From Arabidopsis thaliana (Eukaryota > Streptophyta > Magnoliopsida > Brassicales > Brassicaceae), in NCBI RefSeq assembly GCF_000001735.4, contig NC_003075.7, positions 12,463,001 to 12,527,000 of the forward strand: DNA of 64,000 bases, written 5' to 3'. Each line of letters opens with the position of its first letter. Positions within the stretch are counted from its first letter, which is position 1. Made by a program: the position numbers and the translations under genes. Below the pieces are notes generated by a model. That model searched no databases. It was not told where the DNA came from and saw only the letters and a program-made list of their open reading frames with translations. Of this stretch, positions 28,061 through 49,290 are shown in pieces.

Positions 28061-31000
28061 ATTTACTAAGTTTATTGAAAGTTAAATAACGGAATTAGAC
28101 ATTTTATGTTACAAAAACTTTGGTAGATTTGATCGTAGTGGATTATTTCTTGGGGTTTTCTGTCAGAACGTTTTAGAGTTACAAATGTTTTATGACCAAA
28201 TATTGTATATGCAAATAAAGTTAAATATAATAAGCATCTAATGGTACATGGAAAAACTGGTGGATTCAGTTGGTTAACACTTGTGAATAAGATGACAAAA
28301 AGCTTTAAGATATCTACTTTAAGTCATAATCTCTTCTCTGCCTAAACCACTTGATAGATTCTTTGAATGATGGACACTGGACAGACTAACTTCACTTTTT
28401 GATGTCACAATAGTAAATTTATAAAGTTATCAAATTTCTTTCCTCCAATATAACAGTATAATATTCAAAATAAAAAGTAAATAAGAAGGCCTTTTAACAA
28501 ACAAACAAAAAACTAAATAACAAACCAAAAAATATTATGTACTTATGTAGTACATGAAATAACAATGTTAGAGATTTGCAACTTGTCTATCTAATATATG
28601 TCAAATATATTAGTTAATAAAACAAAATTAAAAGGTTCTCTACAATGAAATACAAATGTAATTAGATTGAAAAGAAAAAGAAAAAGGAAAGGAAGCCTAA
28701 AAAGGCAAGATATATAAGCCAATAGGTCTAAGACAGAACTCTATAAAGGAAATAACAAAAAAAAATAAAGCATAACTAAACCATTGAAATTGCAGTTTAC
28801 ACTCATATATATATATTGAAAAACTTAAATTCATATTCAATAAATAAGAAAACAAAACCAAAAATGTGTAGAGTTTTCTATTTGCAAAACTCTTAATTTG
28901 GTGTAAGGGCGGGCCGAGCAAAAGAGTGACAATCATTGTAGAAGTTGTGTCCTCTTCTTTTCATTTTAAAATATCTTTAAATTGCTTTTCTATAATGTTT
29001 GGTCTGGATATTAATCTATGAGCATGTAATTCCTTCTAGGTTAAAAAATGGTTAAATTTTTTATTTAACAAACTAATTGTTACTCTAGTTAAGAAAAAAA
29101 AACTCAGTGAATATCAATATTATTGGTTGAAAAGCGCATGAAAAAAACCCCATGACAATATAGATCGATCAAAGATTGGTGAAATTCAAAATCTCCTACA
29201 TTTTAATGGGGAATGCCGGAATGCTAAGCTGCAGTTAGGCCCAAGGCTAATCGGCTTACCCACCGAAAGCCATGTTCACATACTAATAAACTGAAATTCA
29301 CATTAAAACTATGGAATCTAACACTCAAATTGGTGTTATTTGAGTTGTTGGCTTGAAATGGGTGAGTGGAAGCTGAATTATTATTCATAGAAGCTACTTA
29401 AATAAGTGATTAATGACTAATGAGTGATCAAAAAGTGGTTTATTAGTCAAATATAGTTGGCAAAAAAAGAAATATATATATCATATTGTGTTATGATTTT
29501 CGTTTAATCAGTAGTTTCATTCGTTTAAGTTAGAAAAGGTTTAGAAGTTGGAAAAAGGTGATCGTAAACAGAATCTCCATTTGGATGAATCAGATTGTAC
29601 CAAACGAATCGTAATAGAAAAATTGCAGCTTGTTTAATTTATAATTTAACTTCTTTTTATTAAAAAATACAAACCTTTTGTTATATATTATCTAGTATAG
29701 TACAACGTTCAGATTTGTGTTGGCATTACATGTTACTAAATTTTAAAACTACCGAAGAAAGTTTAGTAGTCCCACTGTTATATAAACCAACTAGTACTAC
29801 TCCTTAAAGGAATTTTTTTAGTCATCAATATTATAGTTTTCGCTTATTTATTATTATTCATGTTACTTCGTATTATCAACATTTTTAAAAAAACAGTCAA
29901 CCTACTAACTTATCGATGAACTAGACTAGAGCAACTTGAGTTCGAATTTTTTTGACACATTATATTTAGTTATTGTTTTTTATATGTTTTATGATGCTAA
30001 CTGTGATAAAATATGAGTACTAATCTTTAGTTGGTGAAGAAAACTCATATTTTAAACATGATTTGAGCTATATCGAAAATAGTCGGTTGATGTATTAAAA
30101 AACAGGGGATAATTAAGATGGCCGTAAACAATTGTTTGGAATCAGGAATACAAGTTGCAATGATATAAAAACTTTAGTTGTAGACTGTTTAATTGAAATT
30201 AAAAATACAAATAGGGTGGAAAATAATGGTCGATAGTTTAAATTATGCCAACGGATGATGCNTAGAGAATCTTCCGTCCAAGTAGGGATTGGTTTATTGC
30301 TGGTCAAAATTCATTTTCAGTTCCCAAAACCCCATGTGCATTTTCTCATTAGTCAAACTTAAAAATGTTTTACATAAAAGAACCATTTAACTTTATTTTA
30401 TAACCGTTTGCCATTAAATATTTGACTGTTCGATTATTACCATGATGACTGCGTTATTTTGAATTTTGATTATCATTTTCGTTACATTTTAAAAACGTAA
30501 TATCTGTTTATTATATTACTTGAATGTTATAAACGTAACAATGAAACACAAGCAACAAAAAATGTTTTGAGGCTTTGAGCTATTGATTTTGACAATCCTA
30601 ACCATTTGAATCATACTAATAATGTTTTTTTTTTTTCAATTTCAGCCATCCTCTTTTGTGTTAAAAAGTCAATTACCAAAATGAATTTTATAATTTTCTT
30701 CGGTGAAAATACCAATGATCAATGAAAGTAGGAGCTGGACCATGAGTACCATTAGGTGTTGAACATTTGCATTTTAACTGTTTAATTTCGCCGTGTAGAT
30801 ATGAGCCTTCTGATGTACGATTTGATGATTAACTAATCATGTTATTTTCATAATTAATTTATATTAAAGCTCAAATCAGAGGCTCAAATAGTTAATCAAA
30901 TCATTACATAAGAACACATGTAAGTGTAGAGAATGGTACGTAACATCTGTTCTCTCTTTACGGATATTGCGACTATATATATGAAAGTAGATTTCTTAAT

Positions 31001-42417: not shown

Positions 42418-45400
42418 TTAATTTCTCGGTTTGGTTGATGAAGATAGTACTATTAGTGGTTAATTATTGCTATTTATTTAATTAATCAATATGTTCTTAA
42501 TTTCACTTTGAATTTTCTTATTGGTGGGTTTTTCCTTTTTTTTTGTTAACTTGGATTTTTAAGGATACTATTGGGGGTGCATGCATATTGAATGACTTTA
42601 ATTTGTTATCCCTAACACAGATTATAAATGATACATTGGTTGGTCTTTTGTTGTTCCTTCTCTTGTTCATGTCACATTATGAGAAAAATTAATGCTAAAT
42701 AGGTTGTATAAATAGTGTGTAACTAATTATATGTATATGCAACAGCATAATATGTTTTTGCTCTTTTGGGCACGCAACACATGGATACCATTTTGTTAAA
42801 GAACAGGTACATATTAAACAAAAAAATAAGACACATTAAAATTTTTAAAAGAGACAGGTAAGCCCTGATGACTTTCACATGATCCTCACTAAATACACTA
42901 AACTATTATTTATTGCTAAAGATGGTTTAGCCCTACCATACCTATTAATAAACAAAATCATATTCCATTTAAAATTTCCATCTAAATTTAAATTATTGGA
43001 TTCGTTCCTGACCAAAAAACAATAGTTTGGGTTCGTTTACAATTACAAGGAAAGGTACCTAATTAATTTGATTCATTTTTATTGTATACAGTACTTATTA
43101 ATTAGATATGGCATGGGTAAGTTTGGAAAATGTTGATTTCAGGGATTATTTTGCTTCAGAAAACAATTTGAAATGAAATGAAATGAAGTGTGTTTTGGTT
43201 TTCGATGTGTAAACTGAAGAGGCAATTGAGTTTTTTTAAACATTGAAAATAAAGACAGTGGAGAATAATGTGAGAGACAAGTCACAAGTCTAAGGACTAA
43301 AGAAGGAGGGGCCCACAAAAACATTCTCCTTGAAATCTGTGTGTTTGAAATTATACATCCCACTATGGTTTCAGCTTCATCAATCTAGATCTTGACCCTT
43401 TTTGCCCCTTGAGTTTTTTTTTTAATTCTAAAAATATTACTTGTATAATACTCTCTTCATATCTGCTTAATTACATTGAAACCACGTACAATTACATACT
43501 TTTATTATTGAAAATTAAACTAAATTTACGAACATGAAATATTCTTTGTTCTGCAAATATATCTTTCACAGGGCTATAGAACAAATTATAGTCTGGCTAT
43601 AAAGTTCTGTTAAAAACATCCGCTAAATTTGGAATCTAATTGTAAGACAAAAAAAAAAAAGAATAGAGTCGAACTTTGATGCTACAAAACCACACCGGTC
43701 AAATGGCAGTTGAGAATATTTCTCTCAACTATCAAAACAGGAAACTTATTAGCTGCATATAAAGTAATGTTTTATAAAATATTAGTTCCAAGATATTCAG
43801 ATATCTTCTAATACGTACCACAATTCAAACACAATCCTCCCCTAACTTGGATTAAGTAGTAGGCCAATGATATCCAGAAGATCATTATCTAATCAAAGGC
43901 AATTATACAAGAACAATTTTGATAATCTCGAAGACTCTTAGTTAACGATGTTTTGTGGTATTGGGTTTACCGGTAAAGTATTTTAAATTTTACAAGAAAA
44001 TAAAATAAGTAAAATGTTATTCGTTTTTGAAATCGATTATTTCATTTGAACTAGATATATAGACATCGAGGTCAAAGGACTTAGGTGATGTGTTATGGTG
44101 GCCACCATAAAAAGAAAGAGAAGAAGAATCCGACCAACGTTAAATAATTTTGTCTGAAAGTGACAATGACTCGACCTTAAGAACATACTTATACACTAAG
44201 TTTTAAATTCGGTGTGCTTGTGTTGAAGTATTCAAGTATGGATGTGATCTTACGGATAAGTTCTAGTGGAGAATGGAACATTTAAAAATAAAATTAAATA
44301 GATGTCAGATTAAAAGTTTTCTATCAGATTGTAGCTCAACAACTTCGAATAATAAAACCATGTCCATAAAAATTAGTTGAATCTATATCAAAATCTTTCT
44401 CGAACACTTTTAGTTTCCTCTTTAATATTTTCTTTGTTTTTGTGTAATCAAGTCTAATTCTCTAAAAGTCATATATTCAATGCCACTAGTTCAAAGTTTA
44501 TATTTGCCAATTTAAAAATTTATGTTTTTGAGCATCACTTGTAACTACTAGTAATGCAATCTTTAAGCACATATTCAATTTCTGTCATATTTTGTTTTCT
44601 CTGTGAGAATTGTATTCATGTCACTTACATTTACATATATTTTTGACAATCGTAGGTCGTCGACATATATTTCGAAAGTAGATTCAAGTTGTTCGGCAAG
44701 TGGAGTATAATAATTTATAGGATGATAGGATGGACCATGACATGTTATATGTAGTACATACTACATAAGGCAAACGAATATATGTTAGAATATATTCTTT
44801 TCAGAAGATTAATAGATCTTAACATCATGATATAATAATAGCTAAGCTAGGGGACATTATTTTGTAACTAAATGAATTGATATGATGGAAAAATATTTTG
44901 AATTTCTAAGTAGTAGACTTCTACCTAATTATTCAACTTTTCATTTTGGTTTGGTGAGAAAAAGGGAAAACAAATTAGATTGGGAGGACGACCTTCACAT
45001 GCTGATCAATTAAGTATATAGTAGAATATAAACAAAAAGAATATGAAGTGTAACCGTAAAACTAAGATGTTCGCATGCATGAGAAGGATATTATTCACAT
45101 TTCCAATATTATTTTTGTACAAATATATTTCTATTATGATATTTCATTCGCGTTAGCAAATTTATACTACTAAGTGGGTATTAGTAGGTTTTAGTTAATA
45201 TCAAATTCATACATTAGAATGCAACTCAATAAAATATATTCAATAAAGATTGATCAAGTACACAATTAATGAATCGGATAAAACTTTGATGCTACGTTTA
45301 GGCGTTGACATAAAAAAGAAGAAGATTTGATGCGACCTACGCATAGGTTTTGAAAGGCGTTGGGAAAGGTATGACTCCCGACCGTTTTTTTTTTATTGTG

Positions 45401-45824
45401 AGTGAGTGATATATACGCATATGGTTGTGATCGCATAAATCATTGTGAACGCACCAAACATTCAAATATTGTTCGTAAAATATATGACTTGTAAGCTTCA
45501 ACGCATTGCTAGAACGAAAACAAGATTAATAAAACAGAAATTGAAAAACACATGAAGATCAAAGATGGTCAACTCATATAGAACCGGATCATGTTTTAAT
45601 TTGCAGTCTTTTCATGTCCTTTTAACTAAACCTTCACACTGTCAAGTTTTCCTTGGTCACATACACGGATACAACTAGTTTCAACTTTGCACCTAGGTCT
45701 GAATTATTTGTCTCACCTTGTCTCAAACTAGTTACATTAACACCAACAAATTAGTGATTCATTGTAGATTTACTAAAAAACACGTTATCTCTCTTCGAGA
45801 AAGCCCAAGTCCATCATCACTTAT
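42418..45824. other. Intergenic region after DOF4.6
   Basis: About 3.4 kb of AT-rich DNA without a supported gene or clear repeat family. Confidence 0.55.
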
Positions 45825-46095
45825 TGGGCCGAGAGATCTGAGTGCTAGTTTGGGGTTACTTCACGATCCAGGAAACCCGAAAGTGAAGTCTGTCATGAGG
45901 GTGGCTGAGACGGCGGTTTTGGGATCTGATCCGGCTAACGGCGGAGCTTACTTGGCAGGGATGGCGACGGCACAGGACAAAGCCGTGGATCTAAAGTCAC
46001 GTGGGTATCACATGATACTCGGAGCTACTGATGTGCCTTTGTTTAAGAAGGCGGTGGTTGACGACGTCAAAAGTTTTAAGCTTGGGTCTTCGTAA
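45825..46095 (+). pseudogene. 5'-truncated HpcH/HpaI aldolase-like copy (At4g24070-like)
   Basis: From GPRDLSASLG onward this stretch is closely similar to the last part of ALL1 (corresponding to 49031-49290) and stays open to a stop at 46093-46095, ending KLGSS. Homology begins abruptly near 45825; upstream sequence is unrelated and supplies no in-frame ATG before the internal VMRV methionine. The copy keeps the Asp of GPRDL but lacks the whole N-terminal barrel, including the Arg/His and first metal-ligand Glu regions, so it cannot be an active aldolase alone. Downstream flanks do not match ALL1 either. It may be transcribed and has been annotated as a gene, but a truncated duplicate is the simplest reading. 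Confidence 0.8.
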
Positions 46096-46664
46096 ATTTA
46101 TTATGATATATTTTGACGTAATTATAAGTTTTATATGATGATGAATAAGTTGTTTTTGTCGGAGATGTTTTGTGCCAAGGATATGTATGTAAGAGCAGCC
46201 TCAACGGGAGGTCTAAGTAGGGTACTAAACACAAAAAGATCTAAAAATTAAACCATTTGTTTGTCGTAGACGATATGTAATGAACCATTTGTTTTTCGTA
46301 GAACAATTGAATTTGAAAGCAATTTTACTTGTTCTCTTTGATACGAAAGATGTTTAAACTACCTGTGTCAAAGAAAATCTAGATTGTGAGAATGAGACAA
46401 GAGAAAGCAATTGCTCTTGAGGATGAACCTGACAAGAGACCTGATGTTACACAACTGAGCTCTTTTACAATCTTTTCTTGCCTTTACTTGGTTGATTTTA
46501 GTGCATGGGGTTATCTCCCGGAGATCAATTCCACAAGACAAAAAGTTAGTAGCTCGTAAGAACATTAGGCGTGATTCTTATCTGAATTAGCCTAATTTTG
46601 GTACGATTTTCGAATGGAGAAAGAAAAGGTCGGAGATTTCAAAGCACAACCACGATCAAGACGC

Positions 46665-46900
46665 TCTACGACTATGTTGATTGGCTTGGGATCTTAGAAA
46701 GCAAGAGAGTATAGTTTAATATCAAACTTCCTGAGGACAATGTACGGTAAAGACAAACTCTCGATGTCTCTGAAAGATACATGTCTGCATCCTCAGGCGA
46801 GTCTCTTCATAAGCAAAAACCAGATAATTCTCTTTTGTTTCTTCGTTTTTATGTTTCGTATATGCATGAGAATCTTGAGCGCTTAGGTTAGATATAATGT
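46665..46900. repeat. Diverged duplicated segment, copy A
   Basis: Shares ordered blocks with 47650-47855: GACTATGTTGATT, then GACAATGTAC-GT, AGACAAACTCT-GATGTC, AATTCTCTT and a TTAGGTTAGAT-like end. Copy A stops right at the polylinker match. Neither copy is open in frame. Confidence 0.6.
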
Positions 46901-46901
46901 A

Positions 46902-46926
46902 GGGGATCCTCTAGAGTCGACCTGCA
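46902..46926. other. 25-base match to the pUC/M13 polylinker
   Basis: GGGGATCC (BamHI) is followed directly by TCTAGA (XbaI), GTCGAC (SalI) and CTGCA (most of PstI), in the exact overlapped order of the pUC18/19 and M13mp18/19 multiple cloning site. The match breaks on both sides (A instead of C before, T instead of G after). Chance is very unlikely. The most likely explanation is a residual vector or chimeric-clone artefact in the source assembly. Confidence 0.85.
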
Positions 46927-47171
46927 TTTGGTACTCATGAAAAAAAAAAAATTGGTTGATTATTTTTCCAAACATAAACGATATACTAGTAATCTTGAAT
47001 GCACAACACATCAATATATGAAAAAATCATTAAAATCTCAATTAAATAAAGAGCTACATTATGATTAAACAAAAAAAAACTTCATGGCGAAATACCGATA
47101 AATATAGCAGGAGCGATATGCTATTCTATAGAATTAATTTTCATAATTAGATAGTTCATAATAGAAAATAG

Positions 47172-47291
47172 TTAAGAAGCAGTAGGATGAACCCGATCAT
47201 GATAACCAATACAACCCCATAGAGCAAACGCGATGAGGATGATGACCATAAGGATGGTGGCAACGATTGTTACGATGAACGAAGTATCCAT
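47172..47291 (-). CDS. 39-aa single-helix membrane micropeptide (candidate)
   Basis: The minus-strand ATG at 47291 opens a complete 39-codon frame starting MDTSFIVTIVATILM and ending HDRVHPTAS. Residues 5-27 form one strongly hydrophobic helix; a short hydrophilic C-terminus follows. Its pattern (short Asp/Ser start, single helix, small basic tail) looks like real plant one-helix micropeptides, but no family is recognised. Immediately upstream is a pyrimidine-rich leader on its strand (GTGAAGAAAC on plus), and beyond it lies the 118-bp tandem duplication. Confidence 0.45.
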   Translation of the reverse strand: MDTSFIVTIVATILMVIILIAFALWGCIGYHDRVHPTAS

Positions 47292-48383
47292 ATTGTTTCT
47301 TCACCGCACCAAATTTTTTATTTTTTTCTAACCTTTCCTCGTGTCTTCTTCTTCTTGAAATTACATTTATATTGTAAGTAAATTGGAAATAGTGGAAGTA
47401 ATTTACATTTTGTCATCAAGAAACATACTAGCAAATTTTTTGAAATTTTACATTTAGTCTCTTAAAAATATTACCTAGGAGTAAAAATTTTGTAAGTAAA
47501 TCGGGAAAAGTGGAAGCTTTTACATTTGTCATCAAGAAACATACTAGCAAAATCTGGAAAATTTTACATTTAGTCACTTAAAAATATTAACTAGGAATAT
47601 ATATAATAGAAATTTTACATCTTTTGGTATTTTGTTGGTCGTCAAAGTAAACATGACTATGTTGATTCGCTTGTGCGGTTGTACGAAGACAATGTACTGT
47701 AGAGACAAACTCTTGATGTCGACGCTATCTGGAGACTGCAGTCTTAGATAACCTTTTCATCGAGTTGGAAATAATTAGAGAAACCAAACAAAATGCAAGA
47801 CCAACTTAATTCTCTTCTCTTGTAATTCTGGAGCTTAAGTTAGAGATTGGGTGTTGTCATATTAAATTTGTTAATCATACTGATTACTTTCACTCACATT
47901 TGTTCTTGTTATTGTTTATGTTAAATCGTCACTCACATTGTATGCACATGTCAGATTCAGACCAATGTTAAAAGTGCATTATTTTGTTTGGAAGCGTGTG
48001 AGAAAACAAAAAGTTTATGTACATAACATAAATCCAAAAGTACTACTCGAATAAAGTACAAACTTTATATCTTTTAAACTCCACGTAATAACTCATTTTT
48101 GTTTGTTTTAATCAAAAATTCAAACGTCTAAAATTTCGTCTTAAATAAGAAATGATATTAAGAAAAATATCTTTGGATTAATAACAGATCACCGAAAATT
48201 AGAATATGGTTTTACCAACCCAATTAAATTCTCAAATTAATTGGAAAGAGAATAATGTTGACAACAACAAAAAGGAAATAAATCGCATGCAATGAAAGGA
48301 ATGAATCTTCTTCTTCTTCTTCTCTATTAACGCTTCTTCTTCTTCTCCTTCTTCATCACCCTCCTCCACTTCTCTCAGTCACA
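47292..48383. other. Intergenic region before ALL1
   Basis: Holds the 118-bp tandem duplication, copy B of the duplicated segment (47650-47855) and the ALL1 promoter. CTT-rich DNA at 48308-48360 (CTTCTTCTTCTTCT type) precedes the ATG. Confidence 0.65.
47373..47608. repeat. 118-bp tandem duplication, two units
   Basis: Units start at 47373 and 47491, both TGTAAGTAAAT-CGGAAA-like, and share GTCATCAAGAAACATACTAG, AATTTTACATTTAGTC and CTTAAAAATATTA blocks. They differ by point changes and small indels. Confidence 0.85.
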
Positions 48384-49290
48384 ATGGCGACCAAAAAATC
48401 TCTGAAATCACGTCTCCAAGATGGAGAAAAGCTTCTCGGCCACTTTCTTCTCTCCTTTTCTCCGGAGCTTGCAGAGATCGCTGCAAGAGCTGGATTTGAC
48501 TTCATTGTCGTCTACCTTGAGCACGGTGCCGGCGGGATTCGTGAAGCGCTTCACTGCATTCGAGCAATCGAAGCCGCTGGTTGCTCCACTGTCCTCCGTG
48601 TACCCGACATTAGTCAGGCTTGAGCTAAGAAAGCGTTAGATCTCGGACCCGACGGCATTATGTTCCCAATGGTCGAAACCGGAAGATCTGCATCCGAGGC
48701 GGTCTCGTTTTGCCTGTATCGTCCTGACGGTGTTCGCGGCTGTGCTTACTCCGTTGTGAGAGACTCCAGCTTCGGATTTAACGAAGGGTATTTGGGTAAT
48801 TACGCTGATAAGCTCTTCATTATGTGCCAGGTTCGATCCTCAAATCCCCTTTGATTTTCAATTTTATTGGACGAAATTGTTAAATTGAATTCTAAAATGC
48901 CTACTTGTGAAAAAAATGGAAGTTAGAATTTTTATGCAATTGATATATTTTGTGCAGATTGAATCAGAGGAAGGTATGAAAAATGTGAAGGAGATCATAG
49001 CCGTTGATGGGATGGATTGTGTGATGATGGGGCCGAGAGATCTGAGTGCGAGTTTGGGGTTACTTAACGATCCAGGAAACCCGAAGGTGAAGTCGGTCAT
49101 GAGGGTGGCTGAGACGGCGGTGTTGGCCTCTGATCCGGCGAATGGTGGAGCTTACTTGGCAGGGATGGCCACGGCTCAGGACAAAACCGGTGATCTCAAG
49201 GCACGTGGGTATCACGTGGTGCTCGGGTCAACCGATGTGTCGCTGTACAAGAAGGCTGTGGTTGATGAGGTCAACGCTTTTAAAGCGTAG
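48384..49290 (+). pseudogene. ALL1: HpcH/HpaI aldolase-like gene interrupted by an in-frame TGA (At4g24080)
   Basis: Aldolase-like protein of the HpcH/HpaI (2-keto-3-deoxy-glucarate-type, class II) family. Exon 1 (48384-48830) and exon 2 (48958-49290) are both phase 0, 258 sense or stop-replaced codons plus the final stop. Family features are present: EHGAGG (residues 46-51), RVP, IESEEG (metal-ligand Glu at about 151-154) and GPRDLSAS (Asp177). Codon 80 (48621-48623) is TGA; related plant proteins have Trp there before AKKALDLGP, so this is a one-base TGG-to-TGA change. After it the frame resumes cleanly for the rest of the domain, with a correct intron. It is therefore either a recent pseudogene, a sequencing error, or a gene giving only truncated peptides. 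The nearby truncated copy derives from this family. Confidence 0.88.

Follow-up and report, generated by a model that had tools for sequence, protein, structure and literature searches.

Remnants of cloning vector are known from public sequence records. A survey of public ESTs reports such remnants in 575 of 35,363 sequences, and the segments that it describes as left by cross_match were all shorter than 25 bases (PMC2194723), a range just above which lies the 25-base tag analyzed here. This tag was encountered at positions 46902-46926 of a window, by which we mean the whole stretch of 64,000 nucleotides of Arabidopsis thaliana DNA that was studied (C4:12463001-12527000). Its closest described counterpart is the untrimmed vector leader of a Sanger read, as in pUC18/M13mp18 SmaI shotgun and EST libraries. 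The two have in common an exact polylinker sequence, a start at the SmaI cloning cut, a place in the vector close to the forward primer, a short length and occurrence as a single copy, but a leader terminates the record of one read whereas the tag is located inside a finished chromosome. Similarly, the pUC-type lacZ polylinker (GenBank U36911.1) agrees with the tag at 25 of 25 bases, whereas the remaining vector is missing on both sides of it.

Results

On the plus strand, the tag reads GGGGATCCTCTAGAGTCGACCTGCA and is identical over its full length to positions 2001-2025 of U36911.1. Identity is lost at once outside both ends, the adjoining bases being GATATAATGTA on the left and TTTGGTACTC on the right. 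According to computed cut positions, the left end of the tag corresponds to the SmaI cut (CCC^GGG), with half of the SmaI site included, and the right end to the PstI cut (CTGCA^G), and the feature is described as a pUC18/M13mp18-type polylinker bounded by these two cuts. An earlier sequence-only reading had given the match as BamHI-XbaI-SalI-PstI, ending within the PstI site; the end holds and coincides with the PstI cut, while the beginning is refined to the SmaI cut.

When the whole genome (119,662,809 bases in 7 contigs) was searched, the tag was the sole match with at most three mismatches in these 119.66 Mb, and a reversed-pattern control gave none. An extended polylinker pattern that terminates with CTGCAGG had one match in the window, at 46904-46928 with two mismatches, and none in 100 shuffled sequences. 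The number of exact matches expected genome-wide on both strands amounted to 1.3e-8 or 1.4e-8 when calculated from the base frequencies or the dinucleotides of the window, respectively. A chance match was rejected on the basis of the shuffles, the single genomic place and the expectation of about 1e-8. The proposal that the 25 bases match a cloning-vector polylinker is thereby borne out, and the support for a vector origin of the tag is close to the strongest that sequence by itself can give. When a 30-base query beginning with the tag was used, 35 plasmid records and 9 phage records were matched; in 24 and 5 of these, respectively, the match covered at least 80% of the query. The one phage match that was inspected falls within a CDS noted as GFP, and for this reason that phage record appears to be engineered. 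A 23-base core of the polylinker was also found within published papers in a search of the open-licence literature. Among the open reading frames listed for the window, only a minus-strand frame of 42 amino acids (46883-47011) contains the whole tag, and we see no reason to call it a gene.

Other pieces of vector were searched for in the genome. At up to two mismatches, no matches were obtained for the EcoRI-SmaI half of the polylinker, for its PstI-HindIII part or for two pBluescript-type patterns, and a 1.3-kb pUC-type stretch gave no match either. As this last query contained the tag and yet reported nothing, it excludes longer vector pieces only. Widespread vector contamination of the genome was rejected as far as these five other vector queries reach. 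Direct comparison of the window with this 1.3-kb pUC-type stretch yielded no other shared run of more than 14 nt, the longest having 14. Bacterial DNA in the flanks was rejected as well, as a megablast search of 45400-48400 against E. coli genomes gave no match. Patterns from the flanks had no matches in viral and prokaryote contig collections, which was expected and says nothing about the plant.

The sequence-only reading had also questioned whether 46.2-47.8 kb is in its true order. In a search of the genome with 1661 bases spanning the junction, only the segment itself matched at full length and 100% identity, and the four other matches covered 50-212 bases at 75-92% identity (two at chr4:6.64 Mb, of 212 and 82 bases, and one each on C1 and C2, of 50 and 94 bases, respectively). 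Unless it falls into an unassembled gap, no second near-identical home for either flank exists in this assembly. Had a distant locus contributed to a chimera, its own copy would be expected there, gaps excepted, so the missing second copy speaks against such a chimera. In addition, two duplicated families, the HpcH/HpaI aldolase and the UBX pseudogene, are each represented on either side of the tag. Because the flanks have no second home and share these families, a false order is not supported, and this part of the sequence-only reading was not upheld.

Published assembly comparisons speak against a false order as well. In the QUAST comparison reported for the Col-0 long-read assembly Col-XJTU, no misassembly relative to TAIR10.1 was described outside the centromeres, and the same report describes one corrected region of 1816 bp, taken to be on chromosome 5 (PMC9510872). 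The account of a Col-0 nanopore assembly gives a coverage of more than 99% of TAIR10; the discrepancies were confined to the centromeres, and 38 of 46 N-regions were corrected (PMC6338467). Such comparisons inform about gross order only, as they are too coarse for 25 bases or for small local errors. The right flank, when aligned to the relative at chr4:6.64 Mb, did not score above shuffled sequences (88 versus a maximum of 110 in 200 shuffles). Since this relative loses similarity before the tag is reached and the right flank remains unaligned, no paralogue shows the empty site. Twenty-five leftover bases at a correctly placed join explain the observations; some bases may nevertheless have been lost or duplicated there, or the sequence may contain a minor local error. 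That the tag marks a chromosome-4 join at which real bases are missing or the local order is altered, overlooked by the coarse published comparisons, appears rather unlikely to us.

The left flank contains a UBX-domain pseudogene on the plus strand (46379-46843) in two pieces, 46379-46462 and 46598-46843, with 82% and 75% identity to a relative on chromosome 4, respectively. This relative is a minus-strand gene at chr4:6.6407-6.6415 Mb whose peptide matches Pfam UBX (PF00789) with an E value of 1.6e-23, and it is through this relative that the pieces in the window were named UBX. The similarity ends at 46843 in BLAST and at 46847 with looser scoring, more than 50 bases before the tag, so that the tag lies close to where the UBX similarity stops and not on that point. 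The claim that it sits at the end of a duplicated segment is therefore correct as to the neighborhood and not as to the exact position. Further to the left, at 45823-46097 on the plus strand, a 3' fragment of an aldolase copy aligns with 49027-49283 at 86% identity (257 nt) and with the aldolase at chr4:6.62 Mb at 66% (275 positions); its ORF of 66 amino acids had no Pfam match at E 0.001. The aldolase cluster had been called disturbed, and aldolase copies are indeed present on both sides of the tag. Judging from the identities of 86% between aldolase copies and of 75% and 82% between the UBX pieces and the chromosome 4 relative, the disturbance looks like old duplication and decay.

In the right flank, an HpcH/HpaI aldolase gene is located at 48384-49290 on the plus strand, with two ORFs matching Pfam PF03328 (E values of 1.5e-9 and 5e-19). 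It is interrupted by an in-frame TGA at 48621-48623, at a position where the aldolase relative at chr4:6.62 Mb has a tryptophan, and this TGA may be either a nonsense change in the accession or a base error. A second and shorter UBX pseudogene fragment is found on the plus strand at 47653-47720, resting mainly on 36 nt with 89% identity to 46733-46768, a score that was reached by none of 1000 shuffles. The similarity of its first part to the relative at chr4:6.64 Mb is marginal (21 nt), with one of 1000 shuffles reaching the score. With stricter scoring, this right copy obtained 28 versus 16 for shuffles when compared to the first copy and 15 versus 15 when compared to the chromosome 4 relative; with loose gap scoring it was not above shuffles in either case (66 versus 71 and 87 versus 100, respectively). 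Two small features lie between the tag and this fragment. A minus-strand ORF of 39 amino acids at 47172-47291, hydrophobic by eye, occurs at one genomic place at E 0.001, has no Pfam match at E 0.001 and might be a small gene or a chance frame, and at 47369-47604 some 118 bases are duplicated in tandem with 85% identity. The sole ambiguous base (N) of the window is at 30262.

Discussion

We consider it highly probable that the tag is residual sequencing-vector DNA, the untrimmed start of one minus-strand read, and hence a minor error in the sequence with no biological meaning. A sheared shotgun insert would have been cloned at the blunt SmaI cut, and a start of the tag at precisely this cut is what indicates such an insert. 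Sequencing with the universal forward primer would then give a read that passes through HindIII-SphI-PstI-SalI-XbaI-BamHI into the insert, proceeding leftward from 46901 on the minus strand of the window. Its first 16 or so bases may have been unreadable or trimmed, and the next 25 vector bases, TGCAGGTCGACTCTAGAGGATCCCC, retained. With what we take to be the sequence of the M13 universal forward primer, whose site is found in U36911.1, 16 vector bases separate the far end of the tag from the end of the primer, and this is about where a Sanger read turns readable. If the read bordered a contig or lay where coverage was thin, the vector bases could have passed into the consensus, and the neighboring contig, which would begin at the first base after the tag, would have been joined there. 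The scheme builds on the observed vector identity and uniqueness of the tag, on both cut-site boundaries, on the distance to the primer and on flanks that belong to one local cluster, whereas we infer which vector was used, that such a read existed, that coverage was thin and how the contigs were joined. A run of 12 A on the plus strand at 46940-46951, 13 bases to the right of the tag, is a possible cause of poor Sanger coverage, offered as a suggestion only because seven runs of at least 12 A or T, this one included, occur in the window.

The end at the PstI cut would fit a ligation event as well, and given the close spacing of such sites in the polylinker it says little. One might imagine a chimeric subclone in which a SmaI-PstI stuffer of 25 bases had become ligated to two genomic fragments, through a blunt end to the left one and through a TGCA overhang (e.g., from NsiI) to the right one, and the assembly then trusted this subclone. 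The region around the join would in that case be wrong in its order or content. Both ends of the tag do coincide with restriction cuts, and TGCA is followed by a T as from an NsiI end, which happens by chance about one time in four. Also, TAIR10 has local errors, as suggested by a paper that reports looking for a concealed duplication at SEC10 (PMC3984084) and by the 1816-bp correction in Col-XJTU (PMC9510872). Neither flank, however, has a second near-identical genomic copy, and members of the aldolase and UBX families are present on both flanks, so that we regard a chimera as improbable.

A real insertion of vector DNA into the plant stock or into a large-insert clone, as transgene filler or through clone rearrangement, has something in its favor, as the polylinker of the tag also occurs in plant transformation vectors. 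Such an insertion is at odds with the absence from the genome of four other polylinker patterns and of any long piece of the 1.3-kb pUC-type stretch, with which the window shares no other run of more than 14 nt, and the start at the blunt SmaI cut fits shotgun cloning. We therefore give it only a very small chance. For a natural plant sequence that resembles a polylinker by coincidence or shared descent, nothing speaks beyond its presence in the reference, and the expectation of some 1e-8 occurrences genome-wide together with the lack of any other match with up to three mismatches makes it practically negligible. The best reading of the tag is that of an ordinary artefact of about 25 false bases.

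Read as an untrimmed vector leader, the tag is a small and correctable error, some 25 false bases among pseudogene fragments in a reference that is apparently heavily used. All plants that are resequenced and mapped there may seem to share a fixed deletion at the tag, and vector-derived reads could map to it. In the open-licence literature we found no report of vector contamination in TAIR10 and no paper naming the vector used for this clone; the remnant may have been reported elsewhere. For the literature look-up we used At4g24070 and At4g24080 as what we take to be the locus numbers; no paper was found for At4g24070 in the open-licence literature, and At4g24080 appears there in the text of a paper on gene transfer between plants and bacteria.
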